Assembly: GCA_021323655.1 (NCBI GenBank)
Contig: JAJPKO010000010.1
Coordinates: 248,001-312,000, forward strand
DNA: 64,000 nucleotides
Reading direction: 5' to 3'
Origin: Acidobacteriaceae bacterium
GTDB taxonomy: Bacteria; Acidobacteriota; Terriglobia; Terriglobales; Acidobacteriaceae
The position numbers were made by a program, and so were the translations under genes. Under the pieces are notes generated by a model. It saw nothing but the letters and a program-made list of their open reading frames with translations. It searched no databases and was not told the DNA's origin. The stretch's first letter is position 1. Each line of letters begins with the position of its first letter. Below are positions 4,687-54,000 of this stretch, in pieces.

Positions 4687-5904
4687 ATGTCCACGGCACT
4701 CTCTCAGCGTCCGCAATTGAGGCACCTTACCGCTGCACTCGATGAGCTGAAACAAAAGGGGACTTATTTCAAACTGCGCGTGCTGGATGATGCGCAGGCC
4801 CCAGTTTGCACCTATGATGGTAAAAAAGTCATCAATCTTGCTTCCAATAATTATCTGGGGCTGTGCGACCATCCAAAGCTGCGCGAAGCGGCGATCGAAG
4901 CGACGAAGCGGTATGGCGTAGGCTCCGGTGCGGTGCGCACCATTGCAGGCACCATGAAGATCCACATGGAGCTGGAAGAAAAGATTGCGCGCTTCAAGAA
5001 TGTGGAAGCCTGTGTCGTCTTCCAGAGCGGATTTACGGCCAATGCGGGCACGGTCTCTTCGATTCTCGGCAAAGAAGACTTCATTATTTCTGACGAGCTG
5101 AACCATGCCAGCATCATTGATGGCGCGCGCCTCTCACGGGCCAAGATCAAGGTCTTCCGCCACAAGGATGTGGCCCACGCCGAAGAGCTTTTGAAGGAAG
5201 TGCAGAACGAACCCGGCCGCAAGCTCATCATTACCGACGGCGTCTTTTCCATGGACGGCGACATTGGCCCCATTGACCAGCTCTGCGACCTGGCAGAGAA
5301 GTATGGCGCCATCATGATGGTGGACGACGCACACGCTTCGGGCGTGCTCGGGCGCAATGGACGCGGCTCGGTAGACCATTTTCAATGTCATGGCCGCGTG
5401 GATGTGCAGGTGGGCACGCTCTCAAAAGCCATTGGTGCGCTCGGGGGATACGTCTGCGGCAGCCGTGATCTGATTGACTATCTCTACCATCGCGCACGTC
5501 CATTTCTGTTTTCGACATCGCATCCGCCATCGGTCACCGCAACGTGCATTGCTGCGTTTGATCTTATTGAAAATGAGCCGGAGCGCATTGAGCGCCTATG
5601 GGACAATACCCGCTACTTCAAGGCAGAGCTGGGCCGCATCGGGTTTGATATCGGCGGCAAGACGACGCCCGCAAGCGAGACGCCGATTACGCCCATCATA
5701 ATAGGCGATGGCAAGAAGGCCATGGAGTTCTCGCGCGCACTCTTCGACGCGGGCGTAATGGCCACAGGAATCGTCTTCCCCACGGTGCCCGAAGGCAAAG
5801 CGCGCATCCGTACTATTATGACCAGCGAGCACACACGCGAGCAGCTGGACCAGGCCCTGGATACGCTTGAGAAGACGGCGAAGAAGCTGGGGGTCCTGGG
5901 CTAA
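4687..5904 (+). CDS. kbl: Glycine C-acetyltransferase (2-amino-3-ketobutyrate CoA ligase)
   Basis: 405 residues, full length for the alpha-oxoamine synthase family. It is a cytosolic PLP enzyme that cleaves 2-amino-3-oxobutyrate with CoA to glycine and acetyl-CoA, the second step of threonine catabolism. Seen: NNYLGLCDHP near the N-terminus, GSGAVRTIAGT, HASIIDGARLS, the aspartate of MMVDDAHASGVLG, and the PLP lysine in GTLSKAIGALGGY. 8-Amino-7-oxononanoate synthase and serine palmitoyltransferase are close relatives. The kbl call is favoured by overall similarity and by a threonine dehydrogenase gene at 32384-33424, 26.5 kb away. GAGG lies about 11 bases before the start. Confidence 0.85.
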   Translation: MSTALSQRPQLRHLTAALDELKQKGTYFKLRVLDDAQAPVCTYDGKKVINLASNNYLGLCDHPKLREAAIEATKRYGVGSGAVRTIAGTMKIHMELEEKIARFKNVEACVVFQSGFTANAGTVSSILGKEDFIISDELNHASIIDGARLSRAKIKVFRHKDVAHAEELLKEVQNEPGRKLIITDGVFSMDGDIGPIDQLCDLAEKYGAIMMVDDAHASGVLGRNGRGSVDHFQCHGRVDVQVGTLSKAIGALGGYVCGSRDLIDYLYHRARPFLFSTSHPPSVTATCIAAFDLIENEPERIERLWDNTRYFKAELGRIGFDIGGKTTPASETPITPIIIGDGKKAMEFSRALFDAGVMATGIVFPTVPEGKARIRTIMTSEHTREQLDQALDTLEKTAKKLGVLG

Positions 5905-5931
5905 AGCAGGACTTCCAGGGTAATTACTAGA

Positions 5932-6006
5932 TGATAATCATCCACTAAGTGGCTGATTATCATCCTTCACATGGTTGATTATCATCCCTTTTATAGTTGA
6001 TAATCA
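5932..6006 (+). repeat. Four TGATWATCA palindromes at exact 22-bp spacing upstream of the DUF4143 ATPase gene
   Basis: TGATAATCA at 5932, TGATTATCA at 5954, TGATTATCA at 5976 and TGATAATCA at 5998: start-to-start distance is 22 bp each time, about two helical turns. The first three are followed by TCC. A -10-like TATAGT sits at 5992-5997 between the last two copies, and the gene's ATG is 6 bp beyond the last copy. This arrangement suits a cooperatively binding repressor or autoregulator. The binding protein is unknown. Confidence 0.75.
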
Positions 6007-6011
6007 AACCT

Positions 6012-7253
6012 ATGTTTCGCCGCCATCTGCTCGGTCCACTGGAAAACGCCCTGTCTGACACGCCTGCCGTGCTGGTCAATGGAGCGAGGCAGACAGGAAA
6101 GAGCACACTGGTCCAATCGGATGAAGGTGGGCTGGCCGAGCGCCAATATCTTACCTTTGACGATCCCGGCATCCTGGACGCGGCCAGGAGCGATCCCAAT
6201 GGCTTTATCGCTGGCCTCATGTCTCCGGTCACGCTGGATGAAGTGCAGCATGTTCCTGAGATATTCCCGGTCATCAAAGCTGCGATTGACCGGGACCGCC
6301 GGCCTGGACGTTTTCTGCTGACCGGCTCCGCCAATATCATGCTCCTGCCCAAAATTTCAGGGTCTCTGGCCGGACGCATGGAAGTTCTGACTCTCTGGCC
6401 CTTTTCACAAGGAGAGTTAAACGGAGTACAGGAGAACTTTGTAGATGCCTTGTTTTCCGGGACAACCCCCAGCTGGAGGGAAAAAATCACCAGAATCTCC
6501 TGGAGGGAACTGCTTGAGGCCACAGTTGCAGGCGGGTATCCTGCCGCGATCGCGCGACAGAGCGTCTCTCGTCGCAACGCCTGGTTTGAGTCGTATATAA
6601 CGACGATGCTGCAGCGGGATGTTCGCGATCTGGCCAACATCGCTGACATTGCGGCTGTTCCCCGCCTTCTCTATGTGGTTGCCACCCGTGCCGGATCGCT
6701 GCTGAACTTCGCTGACCTGTCGCGGACGATGTCCTTGCCACAGACGACGCTGAAGCGGTACTTTGCTCTGCTGGAAGGGACTTTTCTTGTCCAGCTTTTG
6801 CGGCCATGGGCCAGAAATCTGGGCAAGCGCGTGATCCAGACGCCGAAGGTTTACCTGAATGACAGCGGTCTGCTGGCTTACTCATTAGGTGCCACTGTGG
6901 AGCGATTACAGGCAGAAGGAAATCTTGCCGGGCCTTTGCTGGAAAACTTTGTTCTGATGGAGCTGCACAAGCAATGCACCTGGAGCGAGACCCGGGCGGA
7001 GTTGTATTACTGGCGCACAGCCTCTGGCCAGGAAGTGGACATCGTGCTTGAAAACCGTATGGGAAACGTAGCAGGGATCGAGGTCAAGGCCGCCGCGACG
7101 CTGGGAGAAAAAGATGTCCGTGGGCTGCAGGCACTGGCCGAAACGGCCGGCAAAAACTGGCTGCGCGGAATTGTGCTTTACACCGGGACCGAGGTCATTC
7201 CATTTTCAGCCAATCTGCACGGCGTACCCATCAGCCGCTTATGGTCTGCCTAG
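6012..7253 (+). CDS. AAA-type ATPase with DUF4143 domain
   Basis: 413 residues from the ATG at 6012. A TTG at 5997 would add five residues but lies inside the repeat array. Walker A GARQTGKST sits near residue 30, and Walker B-like VTLDEVQHVPE near residue 75. A sensor region LLTGSANIMLL follows. The C-terminal half has the DUF4143 pattern: KVYLNDSGLLAYSLG, then a PD-(D/E)XK-like tail YYWRTASGQEVDIVLE...GIEVKAAA. Such proteins are widespread and scattered in bacterial and archaeal genomes, with no settled role. No ribosome-binding site is evident and the promoter-like TATAGT is very close, so the mRNA may be nearly leaderless. Confidence 0.88.
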   Translation: MFRRHLLGPLENALSDTPAVLVNGARQTGKSTLVQSDEGGLAERQYLTFDDPGILDAARSDPNGFIAGLMSPVTLDEVQHVPEIFPVIKAAIDRDRRPGRFLLTGSANIMLLPKISGSLAGRMEVLTLWPFSQGELNGVQENFVDALFSGTTPSWREKITRISWRELLEATVAGGYPAAIARQSVSRRNAWFESYITTMLQRDVRDLANIADIAAVPRLLYVVATRAGSLLNFADLSRTMSLPQTTLKRYFALLEGTFLVQLLRPWARNLGKRVIQTPKVYLNDSGLLAYSLGATVERLQAEGNLAGPLLENFVLMELHKQCTWSETRAELYYWRTASGQEVDIVLENRMGNVAGIEVKAAATLGEKDVRGLQALAETAGKNWLRGIVLYTGTEVIPFSANLHGVPISRLWSA

Positions 7254-7261
7254 GCCTGAGT

Positions 7262-8227
7262 TCAGTAGCTTTCCACCGCAATTCCCGTGCGAGGCCCTTG
7301 CGCGTCGTAAATGCCCCAGGCCATGCGCGGAGTATTGTGGGCCAAGCCATAGCGTCCATTCGGGTCAAGCAGAATGATGCCGCCGTGTCCGCCCATGCGC
7401 TTGTAGAGATACGCAATTGCTTCCGGCGCAACCTGCTCCGGGGAGCGACCCTGCTGCACTCGGTCTGTGGCCCACTTGCCCAGAACGAGCTTCATAATGG
7501 GCTCACCCCATCCAGTGAGGGAGACAGCGGCACTGAGATTGTCGGCATAGCAGCCGCATCCGATGAGCGATGAATCGCCGACGCGCCCGGGCATCTTATT
7601 CAAAGTGCCTCCGGTAGAGGTGGCCGCTGCGAGATTGCCTTTAGCATCGACCGCCACTGCGCCGACTGTGTCATGCGAGGCAAGATGCGCGGCTGTCTCC
7701 GGAGACTTATCATCGCCGGCAAAGGTGAGGTCGGGCAGTCCGGCGCGCTCCTTCGCCTGCGCTTCTTTCAACCGCTCACGCTCGCGCTCAAGCACCAGCT
7801 CAGAATTATCAATCAGTTCCATACCGTGGGCCTGTGCGAACTCTTCGGCACCCTCGCCGACGAAATACACATGCGGGCTTTTATCGAGCACCAGCCGCGC
7901 TGCATGAATAGGGTTGCGCAGGCGCTCGACACAGGCCACGCCTCCGGCGCGCATCGTTCCGCCGTCCATAAGAAGGGCATCAAGCTGTACGCGGCCATCG
8001 CGCGTCAAAAAGCTGCCGCATCCGGCATCAAAGGTGTCATCGTCTTCGAGCACAGCGACCGCGGCCTCTACTGCATCTACTGCAGACGCGCCTTTGGCCA
8101 GTAGCGAGTACCCAGCCTCAAGAGCATGCCGGACGCCGCGCTCGTGCGCCTCGGTCATATCATCGGGAATGGCCCACGCGCCTCCATGGACGAGCAAAAT
8201 GGGTGTACGTGACATAAGCGAACTCAT
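7262..8227 (-). CDS. Isoaspartyl peptidase / plant-type L-asparaginase (Ntn hydrolase)
   Basis: 321 residues, normal for the family. It is made as a precursor that cleaves itself before a catalytic threonine, here the T of SHDTVGAVAVDAKGN. N-terminal signatures are LLVHGGAWAI and DAGCGSFLTRDG. Substrate-binding GRVGDSSLIGCGCYAD and the C-terminal GHGGIILLD are also present. It hydrolyses isoaspartyl dipeptides and asparagine. No signal peptide is seen. A second possible start is the ATG at 8215. It lies tail to tail with the DUF4143 gene, 8 bp apart, and just downstream of the FAD/Fe-S oxidoreductase on the same strand. Confidence 0.9.
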   Translation of the reverse strand: MSSLMSRTPILLVHGGAWAIPDDMTEAHERGVRHALEAGYSLLAKGASAVDAVEAAVAVLEDDDTFDAGCGSFLTRDGRVQLDALLMDGGTMRAGGVACVERLRNPIHAARLVLDKSPHVYFVGEGAEEFAQAHGMELIDNSELVLERERERLKEAQAKERAGLPDLTFAGDDKSPETAAHLASHDTVGAVAVDAKGNLAAATSTGGTLNKMPGRVGDSSLIGCGCYADNLSAAVSLTGWGEPIMKLVLGKWATDRVQQGRSPEQVAPEAIAYLYKRMGGHGGIILLDPNGRYGLAHNTPRMAWGIYDAQGPRTGIAVESY

Positions 8228-8250
8228 GATTGTACTTCAGCGCGGTTGTC

Positions 8251-11169
8251 TTATCTGAAGCACCTCAGCACCTCGGCCAGATGCAGGGCGCTGCGGCTGG
8301 AATTCTGGGAAATCTGTTCGCGGCAACTGAAACCATCGCTGACAAGGATGGTCTCCGGCGCCGCTTTGCGCACGGCAGGCAGCAGCACGCGTTCGCCAAG
8401 TGCCTGTGACACCTCGTATTTCTCTTTCTCGAAGCCGAACGGCCCGGCCATGCCACAGCAGCCTGAATCCAGAAGCTCGACATCTGCTCCGCTGGCCTTC
8501 AAAATCGCAACCTCATCTTTCATCTTCATCAGCGATTTATGGTGACAGTGGCCATGCAGCACAACGCGCTTTCCAGCAAGCGAAGGCGCGCGGTATTCCG
8601 GCGCGCGCCGGACAAGAAATTCGCTCAGCAGGAGAGATTGTTCGCTCAGCCATTTTGCGCGTTCGCTCTGCGGAAAGAAATTCAGCAGCTCATCGCGCAT
8701 GACGCTGGCGCAGCTCGGCTCAAGAAAGATGAAGGGCATTCCCGCGTCAATCTGCGGAGCAAAGACATGAAGGACCTTTTCCAGATAAGCACGGGCCTGC
8801 TTCAGAAAACCGAAATCGTAGAGGGGGCGCCCGCAGCAGATATGCTGCTTTGGCGTGAAGGCGGCAAACCCCGCATCGGACAGCACCCCATGCGCGGCAG
8901 CAAGCACTTGCGGATGAAAGTAGTTGTTCCACGTGTCCGGCCACAGCACCACCTGGGCCTGCGCGTTGCTGCCTTTCGCGCTGCTCTGATAACTGCGTGG
9001 AGCAAATTGCGGAAGCCTGCGCTGCGGCGCGATCCCCAGAATGCTCTTGGCAAGCGAGCTGATCCCGGGGACCTGCAAGGGCAGGTTGGCCAGGCGCGGC
9101 GTAATGCCCGGAACCACAGACGCGAGATGCGCCCAGCGGTCCATAAATCCAAAGGCATAGTCGCGCAGCGCGTGACTGTGGCGCTCATAGTAGTGCGCCA
9201 GAAATTCAGCCTTGTACGTGGCGATGTCCACATTGACCGGGCACTCGCTTTTGCAGGCCTTGCAGGAAAGGCACAGGTCCAGCGCCTCGCGCACATGCTC
9301 ATCGCCCCAGCCCCCCTGAAGCACATGGCCCTCGAGTGCTTCCCATAAAAGATGCGCGCGCCCGCGCGTCGAATGCATTTCCTCGCTAGTGGCCATGTAG
9401 CTGGGGCACATGGTGCCTGTCGCCTGCTTGCGACATGCGCCCACGCCCACGCAGCGCAAAGTGGCTTCACCAAACGATCCTTTGTCTTCAGGGAACTGAA
9501 AGTATGTGGCCGGCTTGATGGATTTGTATCCCGCACCCAGCCGCAGATTCTCATGCGGCTCATATACGGGCACCGGGCCAATCATCTTGCCCGGATTCAT
9601 CTTGTTTTCCGGGTCCCACAGCGACTTGAATTCGCGAAAAGCCTGCATCAGCTCCGGGCCAAACATTTTGGGCAGCAGCGCGCCGCGTGACTGGCCGTCG
9701 CCATGCTCTCCGGAAATAGACCCGCCGTATTTCAGGACCACATCGGTTGCGCGATCAAGGAACGCGCGAAATTTGCGAATGCCCTCCTCGCTTTCCAGAT
9801 CAAAATTGATGCGCATGTGCACGCATCCCTGCCCGAAATGGCCATACATGGGCGTGCGGTAGCCAAACTGGTCCATCAGGTGGAATATCTCGCGCAGATA
9901 GCCCCCGAGCTTTTCCGGCGGAACAGCCGAGTCCTCCCAGCCCTCCCATCCATGCGGCTCTCCCGGAACGAAGACCGTGGAGCCCAGCGCAGATTCGCGC
10001 ACATGCCACACACGCGGCGCTTCGGCTTCAGAGTAGTGGCGGGCCTGCGCGGGAATTTGTCTCACCACATCCAGAAAGCGCTCCACCTGCGACGCAACAT
10101 CCTCCGGCGACCAGCCACCGAACTCCACCAGCAGATGTCCGCGCCCTTCCGGCAGAAGCGTAATGTCATCCAGCGCAAGCCGCTTGCGTCGCATAAAGTC
10201 CACCAGCATCCCATCAAAGCCTTCAAGCCCAATGGGCTTCGACTCCAGCACAAACGGCACATGGTCCGCTGCAATAAATGGATCGGCAAACCCGAGCACC
10301 ACCAGGCGCCGGTGCGGCGGACTCGGCATCAGGTTCAGCGTTGCGCCCAGCACCGTCACGCAGGTACCTTCGGTGCCCACCAGCGCGCGCGCCACATTGA
10401 AGCCGTTTTCCGGCAGCAGCTCATCCAGGTTGTATCCGGAAACGCGGCGCGGAATGCGCGGAAACCGCTGCTGAATCAGCTCCGCATACTTGTCGCGGAT
10501 GCGCCGCAGGCCGGCATAGATTTCGCCTTTACGGCCGCCTGCCGCGATGATGCTTTTCAGCTCCTCTTCACTGGTTGCGCCCACGGTCATGCGCGTGCCG
10601 TCGTAAAGCAGCACATCAAGCGACTGGATGTTGTCCACCGTCTTGCCGCCCATCAGCGCGTGTACGCCGCAGGAGTTGTTACCGATCATGCCGCCGATGG
10701 TGCAACGGTTGTGCGTCGCCGGATCAGGCGCGAAGGTCAGGTGGTGTTCTTCCGCAGCTTCACGGACGCGGTCGAGCACGATGCCAGGCTCCACGTGTAC
10801 CAGCTTCTTTTCCGCATCGAGCCAGTGAATGCCGCGCATGTACTTTGAAAAATCAAGCACCACGGCGACGTTGCAGCATTGTCCGGCAAGGCTTGTGCCT
10901 CCGCCCCGCGCAAGCACCGGCGCGCCCAGTTCACGGCACGTTGCAAGCGTGGCCGTCACATCGTCCACGTCGCGGGGGACCACCAAGCCAATCGGCACCT
11001 GGCGATAATTGGAAGCATCGGTCGCATACAGGGCACGGGAGCCGGCATCGAAACGCACTTCTCCCCGCACTACCGAGCGCAGCTTCTGCTCAAGCTCATG
11101 CGATGCGTTGAAGCCCTCATGGGGGCGCTGTTTGTTGTTCAGGACAGAAAACTGAGAGAGGGTGACCAC
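8251..11169 (-). CDS. FAD-binding and Fe-S oxidoreductase (GlcD/GlcF-like fusion, lactate/glycolate dehydrogenase type)
   Basis: 972 residues. The N-terminal half is a FAD_binding_4 domain (VVPRDVDDVTATLATCRE, LARGGGTSLAGQCCN, TIGGMIGNNSCGVHALMGGK) followed by a FAD-oxidase C-terminal domain (SGEHGDGQSRG). The second half carries two 4Fe-4S motifs (GVGACRKQATGTMCPSYM and CLSCKACKSECPVN) and two CCG-type motifs (HICCGRPLYDFG, DSGCCGMAGPFGFE). This architecture is used for quinone-linked oxidation of D-2-hydroxy acids such as D-lactate or glycolate. The start is GTG at 11169. The symporter gene just upstream on the same strand (37 bp gap) supports uptake and oxidation of a monocarboxylate. The exact substrate cannot be fixed from sequence. 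Confidence 0.88.
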   Translation of the reverse strand: MVTLSQFSVLNNKQRPHEGFNASHELEQKLRSVVRGEVRFDAGSRALYATDASNYRQVPIGLVVPRDVDDVTATLATCRELGAPVLARGGGTSLAGQCCNVAVVLDFSKYMRGIHWLDAEKKLVHVEPGIVLDRVREAAEEHHLTFAPDPATHNRCTIGGMIGNNSCGVHALMGGKTVDNIQSLDVLLYDGTRMTVGATSEEELKSIIAAGGRKGEIYAGLRRIRDKYAELIQQRFPRIPRRVSGYNLDELLPENGFNVARALVGTEGTCVTVLGATLNLMPSPPHRRLVVLGFADPFIAADHVPFVLESKPIGLEGFDGMLVDFMRRKRLALDDITLLPEGRGHLLVEFGGWSPEDVASQVERFLDVVRQIPAQARHYSEAEAPRVWHVRESALGSTVFVPGEPHGWEGWEDSAVPPEKLGGYLREIFHLMDQFGYRTPMYGHFGQGCVHMRINFDLESEEGIRKFRAFLDRATDVVLKYGGSISGEHGDGQSRGALLPKMFGPELMQAFREFKSLWDPENKMNPGKMIGPVPVYEPHENLRLGAGYKSIKPATYFQFPEDKGSFGEATLRCVGVGACRKQATGTMCPSYMATSEEMHSTRGRAHLLWEALEGHVLQGGWGDEHVREALDLCLSCKACKSECPVNVDIATYKAEFLAHYYERHSHALRDYAFGFMDRWAHLASVVPGITPRLANLPLQVPGISSLAKSILGIAPQRRLPQFAPRSYQSSAKGSNAQAQVVLWPDTWNNYFHPQVLAAAHGVLSDAGFAAFTPKQHICCGRPLYDFGFLKQARAYLEKVLHVFAPQIDAGMPFIFLEPSCASVMRDELLNFFPQSERAKWLSEQSLLLSEFLVRRAPEYRAPSLAGKRVVLHGHCHHKSLMKMKDEVAILKASGADVELLDSGCCGMAGPFGFEKEKYEVSQALGERVLLPAVRKAAPETILVSDGFSCREQISQNSSRSALHLAEVLRCFR

Positions 11170-51057: not shown

Positions 51058-54000
51058 ATGCAAAGGTCCTCAGATGTAACTAGAAAATTCCTCTACAACT
51101 TGCAATGGATCTTTTTTTTGCTCCTCTGTCTGGTTATTGGTACAGCCTCGGCGAGAGCACAGGCGGTTTACGGTTCCATTTTCGGAACCGTCACCGACAA
51201 TACCGGTGCTGTCATCCCAAACGCGACCGTTACAGTCACAGATATTAGTAAAGGAACCGCGGTCAGCGTCCAGACCAATGAAAACGGCGCCTATACCGTT
51301 CAACATCTTATTCCGGACACCTACCGGGTCGAAGCAAAAGCGGGCGGTTTTCAGGTCAGTTCTGTAGATAATGTGATCGTCTACGCTGATACCCAGCCGA
51401 AAGTCGATTTGCAGCTTACCGTTGGCTCGGTTTCAAACACTGTGACGGTGAGTGCCGCAGCGCCACTGCTGGAAGCAGACCGCGCCGATGTCAGCACGAT
51501 TCTCAACTCGCGCGCCATTGAAAATCTACCCAACCTGAACCGAAACTTTACCGCATTCGAATTGCTCACCCCGGGAACCACCTATATCGGCTGGAACGTG
51601 GGCGAAGCGAATAATCCGCAACGTAGTCAACAAATCGAGGTCAATGGACAATTGCCCTTCGCTACTGGTTACGAGCTGGACGGAACCGACAACCAAGACC
51701 CGATCATAGGCGTTGCTGTCATCAATCCCAACCTGGACGCTGTGTCTGAACAAAAGGTCACTTCGCAGAACTATGATGCCGAATTCGGCAAGGCTGTGGC
51801 AGGACTGGTCACTGCGCAGACGAAGTCAGGCAGCAATGCGTTTCATGGTTCGGCATTTGAATATCGTCGCTCCGATGCGCAACAGGCCCGTGATCCCTTT
51901 ACCGAGTCGACGCGCAATCCTTTAACTGGACGATACATCGCGCCAAATCTCCACAACCAGTTTGGCGGCTCCATTGGCGGTCCGATTTTCAAGGACAAGC
52001 TGTTCTTCTTCGGTGATTATCAGGGATTGCGTGAGAAAACCGGCTCCGCAGTACTGACTACAGTGCCGACGCAGCTGGCGCACCAAACGTGCACATCCGG
52101 CAATGATTGCAATCTCAGTGAGTATCTGCAAGGAGGACAGGGTCAAATTTTCGACCCGTCCACAAATGAGACAGGCTTGGCGGGAAGAACTCCGTTCCCC
52201 AACAACATCATTCCCGCCAATCGCCTGGCTGCACCCGCCATCAATCTGATGAAAAAGATGCCTGAGCCGAATGTTGCCGGAGCGGGAATTGTCAACAATT
52301 ATGCCGCCTCAGGATCAGGCATTTTCAATACGAATCAATTCGATATTCGCATTGATGGAAGGACTAGTGATAAGCTGCATCTCTTTGGGCGCTATACCTA
52401 CTTTGGCTCTGAATTGTCAGGCTCTCCATATTTTGGCGCGGGGGCGGGCAGGGCTTTGGCAGCGGCGGCTTTGCGGGTACTGATGATGCGCGCGATCAGA
52501 GCATCGCTGCAGGCGGCGACTATGTTGTCTCTCCAACCTGGCTTACAGACTTTCGTTTTGGCTACTATCGCATTCATGTAGATGAGCACGGGCCGGACTT
52601 CCATCGGCCGCTTGGAAATGAGCTCGGCATTCCCAACGCAAACGTGGGCGATCTTGCGCTGAATGGCGGTCTCCCACAATTCAACATCGACAACGCCAGC
52701 AATGGCACGAATGGTGGCGGCAATCTCGAATATGGAACCTCCGCGGCACAGTTCCTGCAAAATTCCAGCCAGTATCAGATCGTGAATAACTGGTCGCACC
52801 AGATTGGCAACCACAATATCAAATTCGGGGTTGACCTCCGCTATGGGTTGAACCACCTCATCGGGCTCGACAATAACAATCTGCGCTCCGGTAATTACCA
52901 CTTTGCCCAGACACGGACTGCGGGAGTTCTTAACCCGGCCAATGGAACTACTTCGTCTGGTCTGGGTTTTGCCACGTTCCTGCTCGGCGATGTAACCGCA
53001 TTCCAGCGCACTCAAACCCAGTTCACTGATGCGCAGGAACGGCAGAAGCGCTTTTTCTACTATGCTCAGGACCAGTGGAGACTGACATCGAAACTCACTT
53101 TCAACTATGGCCTGCGCTGGGAGTGGTATTTCCCTGAATCTGTCAATGGCAAAGGACGTGGAGGTCTGCTCGATCTTGGCACGGGGAATATCCGCATCGC
53201 CGGTTACGGAAATTACGGGACGAACCTGAATGTAGAGAAGAGCTGGAACAACTTTGCCCCGCGCTTCGGTTTCGCCTATCAGATCAAACCAACCACGGTG
53301 ATCCGTGCCGGATATGGACGCGTCTACGGCCAAGGATGGTCAGGTGATACCTATGGCGAAGTGCTGACCTTCTCATATCCGATTCAGGTGTCGCAGAACT
53401 TAAACCCGGTATCCAATGCTGCAGCTGTCTTCAACATCACGCAAGGGCCGCCATCTTTCAGTTTTGCTCCGATTCCTGCCGATGGCAATTATCCGTTGCC
53501 GGATGGCGTGAGCGTTCCGACTCGCCCGTTGTGGGTTCGTCTGCCAACGCTCGATGCCTGGAATTTGACGCTGCAGCAGGAGATTACTCCGACGCTGTCA
53601 TTGCAAATTGGCTATGTTGGCAGTCATGGCGTGCATAACATGTTTGACTCGTCTAACCAATTTGATCCGAACCAGCAGACCATCGCCGGCTTCGATCAGA
53701 TCAATCCAAATACAGGCGTGACTTACACGCAAAACGAGCGCAGGCCTTTTTTCAATGGCACTGCGCAACGACAGCTTGGTCTGACCTTTGGTAAACCATT
53801 CGGTTGGACCCAGAGCCTGCGCTACAACGCCAACCAGGCCACTTCCAGCTATCAAGCGCTTCAGGTCAAGCTGGAAAAGCGCTACAGTAATGGGCTGCAA
53901 TTCCTAACGCACTACACATGGTCGCGCGCTTTGGCGCATGAATCGTATTACTTTGCCATCAATCCACGCGTAGGCTGGGGACCAAGTTATTACAACCGTC

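Follow-up and report, generated by a model that had tools for sequence, protein, structure and literature searches.

A Repeat Array with 22-bp Spacing before a DUF4143 ATPase Gene: A Probable Dedicated Operator, Predicted to Be Autoregulatory

The Array and the Gene behind It

The window studied here, that is, the whole 64-kb stretch of DNA that was analyzed, contains a gene for a DUF4143 protein and, directly before it, an array of four repeated units (table 1). The initial annotation had described four exact copies of the palindrome TGATWATCA in this array, and all of them were found in their places, in steps of 22, 22, and 22 bp. The common unit exceeds this 9-bp core, being about GNTGATWATCATCC in units 1–3 and GTTGATAATCAAAC in unit 4. 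The spacers between the units are 8 bp long and differ in sequence, and the cores are kept.

The array is rare at every scale that was searched. TGATWATCA has five matches in the window, the fifth being solitary at position 52014; in 100 dinucleotide-shuffled versions, the number of matches averaged 0.39 and never exceeded 2. Across the genome of 4.59 Mb, in which the array lies on a 480-kb contig, the sequence TGATWATCA-N13-TGATWATCA matches this array and nothing else, and the reversed pattern has no match. The wider core GNTGATWATCANC is present at four places of the genome, three of them in the array (units 1–3) and one elsewhere, apparently in coding sequence when inspected by eye; reversed, it does not occur.

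Table 1. Coordinates of the Array, the Predicted Promoter, and the Domains of the DUF4143 Protein (nucleotide positions in the window; residues in the protein)
Feature	Position	Strand	Basis or detail
Operator unit 1, GATGATAATCATCC	5930..5943	+	core TGATAATCA, 5932–5940
Operator unit 2, GCTGATTATCATCC	5952..5965	+	core TGATTATCA, 5954–5962
Operator unit 3, GTTGATTATCATCC	5974..5987	+	core TGATTATCA, 5976–5984; includes −35-like TTGATT, 5975–5980
Operator unit 4, GTTGATAATCAAAC	5996..6009	+	core TGATAATCA, 5998–6006; includes −10-like GATAAT, 5999–6004
Predicted sigma-70-type promoter, TTGATT-18-GATAAT	5975..6004	+	consensus match, from the last two operator units
DUF4143 protein gene	6012..7253	+	Pfam, PADLOC, structure models, invariant residues
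AAA_14 ATPase domain	about residues 18–136		
Winged helix	about residues 215–290		recognition helix 244–256; reading of the order of elements in the model
PD-(D/E)XK nuclease-like domain	about residues 296–413		E341, D343, E357, K359

Domains of the DUF4143 Protein

Pfam assigned AAA_14 (PF13173, 85.7 bits against a cut-off of 27) and then DUF4143 (PF13635, 154.3 bits against 28.1) to the protein, and these were its sole matches at E 0.001. The PADLOC model PDLC04790 for PDC-S01, a single-gene phage defense candidate, matched residues 2–412 with 535.5 bits, that is, nearly the whole protein. As described in PMC12988326, where 29,494 PDC-S01 systems were counted in bacteria and 9,986 in archaea, PDC-S01 is the fourth most common (candidate) prokaryotic defense system, and validation is pending for most defense candidates.

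A sequence search of the PDB returned nothing at E 0.001. The AlphaFold2 model, built on an alignment of 56 sequences (55 of the 73 usable loci plus the window protein), had a mean pLDDT of 91.2. Over residues 1–293, the closest solved folds were the archaeal ATPases PABY2304 (2qen: Z 15.2, 4.5 Å over 253 residues) and SSO1545 (2fna: Z 14.0, 4.6 Å over 253 residues), at 17% identity, followed by NLR, CED-4, and Avs5 proteins among others. Foldseek and VIA-align set the ATPase near SSO1545, and Foldseek also set it near Orc/Cdc6 and RuvB; SSO1545 itself is grouped in PMC4599002 with Cdc6/Orc1, RuvB, Apaf-1, CED-4, and NLRC4. Behind the ATPase domain, helices 215–225, 233–240, and 244–256 and strands 260–263 and 279–282 of the model were read as a winged helix.

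The C-terminal part was also modeled alone (pLDDT 93.8). Its best comparisons were Can2 (8q41: Z 9.7, 3.8 Å over 117 residues) and McrBC (6hz4: Z 9.0, 2.8 Å over 106 residues), and the weaker ones were SduA (7.3), Card1 (7.0), Cap4 (6.5), and NucC (6.2), in a range of Z that possibly reflects a common arrangement only; Foldseek alone gave zero matches with E below 0.001 for this model. The four candidate catalytic residues listed in table 1 are invariant in the 56 aligned sequences, and likewise in the subset of 43 that was realigned as a domain. With the conserved residues and a restriction-endonuclease-like fold in the model, the C-terminal domain fits the PD-(D/E)XK superfamily as a putative nuclease, and the whole protein is probably a DNA-cutting ATPase.

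The Repeats Overlap the Predicted Promoter

The last two units of the array contain a promoter-like pair with 9 of 12 consensus matches, so the repeated sites overlap the predicted promoter of the DUF4143 gene. This pair is one of four equal-scoring sites in positions 5850–6100, two on each strand, where shuffles would lead one to expect 0.2. Palindromic units allow equal scores on both strands, and this site was picked because of its position before the start codon. The initial annotation had taken TATAGT as a −10-like element at the end of the array; this hexamer does occur (5992–5997), but it is probably not the −10 box. The promoter-like pair sits within the array itself.

The start was taken as the ATG at 6012, in an open frame that reaches back to a TTG at 5997 within the last unit. 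Only 7 bases separate the end of GATAAT from this ATG, and the transcript should therefore start at or beside the start codon, which points to leaderless transcription. Among relatives with at least 40% identity, 70 of 91 have, between 20 and 9 bases ahead of the start, a −10-like hexamer that agrees with TATAAT in 4 or more of its 6 positions, against 16.6% of 1682 control places. A Shine-Dalgarno-like word is found in 12 of the 91. Control at the level of RNA was also considered and was rejected as improbable: a search of positions 5800–6200 gave no Rfam match up to E = 1, a hairpin loop would not fit into palindromes of 9 bp, and transcription probably begins at or near the ATG.

Arrays before Closely Related Genes

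Relatives of the gene were drawn from 200 family genomes, genome contigs (the best 80 of 139), plasmids, viral contigs, and 396 phylum genomes. Plasmid relatives came to 510 records, with 8 of the 20 listed matches examined, and 60 further phylum stretches, mostly the next best, were added by hand, skipping split or short ones. Of the 209 matching loci, 5 duplicated another locus around the start and were dropped, as were 7 in which the upstream DNA was too short or the match began only after residue 40; the 197 loci that were counted may still include near-identical ones.

At all 29 loci with 60% identity or more, the gene is preceded by units that keep exactly to the 22-bp register: two units in 15 loci, three in 11, four in 2, and five in 1. 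The count allowed 1 mismatch in one core and up to 3 in each of the others, so that outer units can be weak. Only 2 of 1450 mono-shuffled controls had at least two units under the same count. In 24 of the 29 loci, the last core begins 12–14 bases ahead of the place of residue 1, and in the other 5 it is more distant. The titles of the records in this group name Acidobacteria, Verrucomicrobia, and one Omnitrophota, most of them being metagenome bins in which single taxon labels may be wrong. The operator array of the initial annotation had been staked on the recurrence of such arrays before other DUF4143 genes, and they are present there, at every close relative. One record filed as viral (IMGVR_UViG_3300031711_000005) was seen to carry two operator units at a DUF4143 gene of 71% identity.

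The Array Is Tied to the Gene

When 300 family genomes were searched for the repeat itself, 7 of them turned out to have the exact tandem pattern, and its reversed form had no match. At five of these seven sites, a full-length DUF4143 match follows (two of the five, in genomes G272 and G298, do not differ from each other around the start). A sixth, L134 (G274:C40, array 1501–1531), has two units adjoining a DUF4143 remnant of 26 residues. At the seventh, L130, a stretch of 87 bases shows 80% identity with the promoter region of an intact relative, and there is no DUF4143 match at E 0.01. The remnant at L134 corresponds to residues 384–409, as though a deletion that began at the start of the gene had taken nearly all of it and spared the operator. 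The exact tandem pattern also occurs in two viral-contig stretches, neither of which has a DUF4143 match (tblastn, E 0.01), and these were treated as unrelated rather than as relatives. In the genome of the window itself there is a broken second DUF4143 gene (L127, G000:C54:17278–17598), and a degenerate array of three units with about 22-bp spacing was seen by eye at it.

No flanking ORF is common to more than three of the 29 loci (flanks of 1.5–3 kb, often less), and the three that share one are the closely similar L042–L044. In the other genome of the genus, no DUF4143 gene follows the upstream neighbor kbl, and a copy with 74% identity lies elsewhere; the gene is therefore accessory at this place. 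In some genomes, two DUF4143 genes of the group occur (G388:C1; G496:C173, at 6631–7818 and 8237–9448, about 420 bases apart). The accessory nature of the gene, together with the plasmid relatives, would be in keeping with repeats that serve as the recombination or insertion site of a mobile element carrying the gene. We regard this as very improbable, since the motif scan of the window gave no second copy of the repeat at the far end of the DUF4143 gene, and since the register is held relative to the start codon.

Spacing and Repeat Type in the Wider Family

The spacing reaches beyond the close relatives, and the unit changes on the way. A best self-period of 22 or 23 in the upstream region was shown by 27 of the 29 loci in the band from 60% identity upward, by 19 of 23 at 46–60%, and by 41 of 45 at 40–46% (87 of 97 in total). 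It was 22 or 23 in 14 of 45 loci at 35–40% identity and in 7 of 55 below 35%, and in 114 of 2650 other segments of the first locus set, which consisted of the earlier 112 loci with 2 duplicates dropped. Units resembling GGTTGAnnnTCAACC are found at 46–60% identity. At 40–46%, the unit is AATYnGmCG, which does not look palindromic by eye, and the period is 23 in 29 of 45 loci and 22 in 12. At 10.5 bp a turn, 22 bp are 2.1 helical turns and 23 bp are 2.2; the repeats thus stand about two turns apart, as is expected of iteron-like sites. Palindromes exactly two turns apart, on which the initial annotation had built its picture, are accordingly not general, the relatives at 40–46% having mostly 23 bp and a unit of another appearance.

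Below 40% identity, long inverted repeats are common: a score of at least 10 was reached in 22 of 49 loci, against 0.8% of 644 control segments. Two further observations concern inverted repeats and palindromes. Six loci at about 30% identity (L026–L030 and L033) have inverted repeats of the TGCAAAATATACG type near the start codon, and all six have a recognition helix like SPSTANHW. And in Thermus thermophilus HB27, the gene TT_RS11170 (L128, 19854–21074, on pTT27) has the palindrome TGAATGA-CTA-TCATTCA just before its ATG. PMC4406477 reports for TT_P0211, a DUF4143 gene of the same strain that may differ from TT_RS11170, a 6.6-fold change with a plasmid present; this report was not counted as evidence here.

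When one rule was used for both kinds of repeat, an array or an inverted repeat was found at 141 of 197 DUF4143 loci and neither at 56. The corresponding figures were 37 of 1182 for other segments and 16 of 275 for the intergenic regions that precede other ORFs in these loci; the thresholds were set after viewing the sequences and applied alike to the controls. Tandem duplications do occur, and one might ask whether the repeats arose by chance or by a simple duplication without function. The spacers that differ around kept cores, the register in every close relative against almost none of the shuffled controls, and the excess over the intergenic controls leave this explanation a negligible probability.

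Repeats are also known as places of assembly, DnaA or Orc1/Cdc6 on origins and Rep proteins on iterons being oligomers nucleated on repeats. The array could be mainly an assembly or target site that nucleates an oligomer of the ATPase, with gene control as a secondary effect. Two to five repeats at 22–23 bp, the nonpalindromic look of the unit at 40–46% identity, and an ATPase fold near SSO1545, Orc/Cdc6, and RuvB speak for such a site. It is less easily reconciled with an array that overlies the promoter-like pair and, in most close relatives, stops a short way before the start, or with the long inverted repeats, a usual form of operator, that many distant relatives have at the same place. 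Moreover, one plasmid copy of the gene adjoins the plasmid's own replication gene, and the copy of the window lies on a 480-kb contig of a 4.59-Mb genome. We consider a primary role in assembly unlikely.

Unit Sequence and Protein Subgroup

The sequence of the unit was compared with the recognition helix of the protein in 193 of the 197 loci. Particular helices are typical of particular units: PQTTLKRY goes with GGTTGAnnnTCAACC (the GGTTGA type), QPTVHRY with TTCACnnnGTGAA (9 loci), SVPTI with GAGnAATCTAAAG (13 loci), and SPSTANHW with GCAAAATATACG (6 loci), while the class AATYnGmCG has many helices (the 12 commonest per class were tabulated). These motif classes were written by hand after viewing the sequences and leave 73 of the 193 loci unclassified. 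Of the 193 upstream regions, 45 have a palindrome with a GATWATC-like core, as do 68 of the 7548 control segments. The outer bases of the upstream palindromes (GGTT, GAAT, GTAT, GGGC, GGTG, GAGC, TTGC, and CGCA) mostly vary with the type of helix. There are exceptions: L141 has the helix PQTTLKRY but GGTG as outer bases, L183 has GGTG with another helix, and two loci with the SVPTI helix fall in another motif class. Thus, the unit sequence co-segregates with the protein subgroup, and not one to one.

We attempted to place the specificity within the protein. Covariation of protein windows with the operator, controlled for overall identity, gave partial correlations of at most 0.13; windows of the helix were near the top, and those of Walker A were equal or higher. 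A matched comparison of loci of the same and of different classes put residues 92–100 and Walker A first, with the helix unremarkable. Neither test singled out the winged helix, no claim is made to have located the determinant of specificity, and common descent alone could explain the match between unit and helix.

These results also bear on the question of who binds the array. A separate regulator of the host might bind it and control the DUF4143 gene: the units resemble ordinary repressor sites, and the failure to place specificity in the winged helix leaves room for another binder. Against it, the 13-bp core is found at just one other place of the genome, apparently coding, so that no regulon shows. 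Furthermore, the array travels with the gene across records of Acidobacteria and Verrucomicrobia, no other ORF is widely common beside it, and its unit changes with the DUF4143 subgroup. A host regulator is, in our estimate, improbable.

A Proposed Operator for the Gene's Own Product

That the array is an operator dedicated to the DUF4143 gene and covering its promoter is well supported. Since a dedicated operator covers the promoter, autoregulation, which the initial annotation had suggested, is the best reading; the operator and its position support that suggestion in part, and its other parts, namely the binder, repression, and dimers on one face of the DNA, are inferred. The array is local and dedicated, and the gene is solitary, with no sign of a regulon and no shared neighbor, which points to the gene product as the binder. 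We therefore predict, as the likely explanation, that the array is an autoregulatory operator bound by the DUF4143 protein itself.

Binding by the protein, repression, cooperativity, the trigger, and a role in defense would fit together as follows. The winged helix of the DUF4143 protein would bind the units of its own operator, and molecules on neighboring units, about two helical turns apart, could touch each other and so bind cooperatively. The bound protein would cover the −35 and −10 elements and the approach to the start codon; RNA polymerase would be shut out, because the last two units carry both elements and end near the start codon, and the gene would repress itself. The ATPase domain would probably set whether the protein stays on the operator. 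Either a nucleotide switch or titration by foreign DNA would then lift the repression of the gene and ready the C-terminal nuclease for action. This trigger for defense is held with much less confidence than the autoregulatory operator. Two points speak against this picture: in STAND ATPases such as CED-4 and the NLRs, which are among the next-best fold matches, the winged helix serves nucleotide switching rather than DNA binding, and 56 of the 197 DUF4143 loci have neither kind of repeat.

Several known systems resemble parts of this arrangement. The ATPase-to-winged-helix part is alike, in the model, to that of the STAND and Orc-Cdc6 ATPases (CED-4, NLRs, Avs5, MalT, and Orc1/Cdc6), from which the DUF4143 protein differs in its nuclease-like C-terminal part and its gene in having an operator array of its own. 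Iteron-binding Rep proteins are winged-helix proteins that bind direct repeats of about 17–22 bp and regulate themselves from an operator; the DUF4143 protein has no match to a Rep family in Pfam. The mycobacterial IniR is a promoter-binding, SSO1545-like ATPase that induces iniBAC (PMC5760070); as described there, it differs in that DNA is bound by a separate domain at the C terminus and in having a MalT-like domain, with no nuclease mentioned. AbiEi, the product of a phage-defense gene, controls its own promoter negatively through inverted repeats (PMC7319586), but it belongs to a toxin–antitoxin system, and the DUF4143 gene stands alone. To the outline of PDC-S01 in PMC12988326, the present analysis adds a proposal for the layout of the promoter and for a probable DNA ligand. 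Among the matches listed in the open-licence literature (titles and beginnings of abstracts), no operators of PDC-S01 or DUF4143 genes were found. Autoregulatory operators are an old kind of control, and PDC-S01 is already known as an abundant candidate. What would be new, as judged from the sequences, is an operator specific to the subgroup, with a spacing of 22 or 23 bp kept in the branch of the window, before a solo ATPase–nuclease gene.

As a more speculative extension, on which we place modest weight and which may well prove wrong, each PDC-S01 could be a one-gene device for sensing and striking that is parked on its own promoter. ATPase molecules would line up on the 22- or 23-bp repeats, or on an inverted repeat, and keep the gene silent until invader DNA or a change of nucleotide drew them off, which would free the promoter and arm the nuclease at once. 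The DNA address would have been diversified many times, with its place and often its spacing kept and its unit changed, co-resident copies would work without cross-talk, and the operator would reveal the cognate DNA. If the upstream repeats are the genes' own operators, many PDC-S01 genes are preceded by the very DNA that their product recognizes. DNA binding, regulation, and the trigger would then be directly testable, and the winged helices and sites of the family would form a ready-made set in which the one can be paired with the other.
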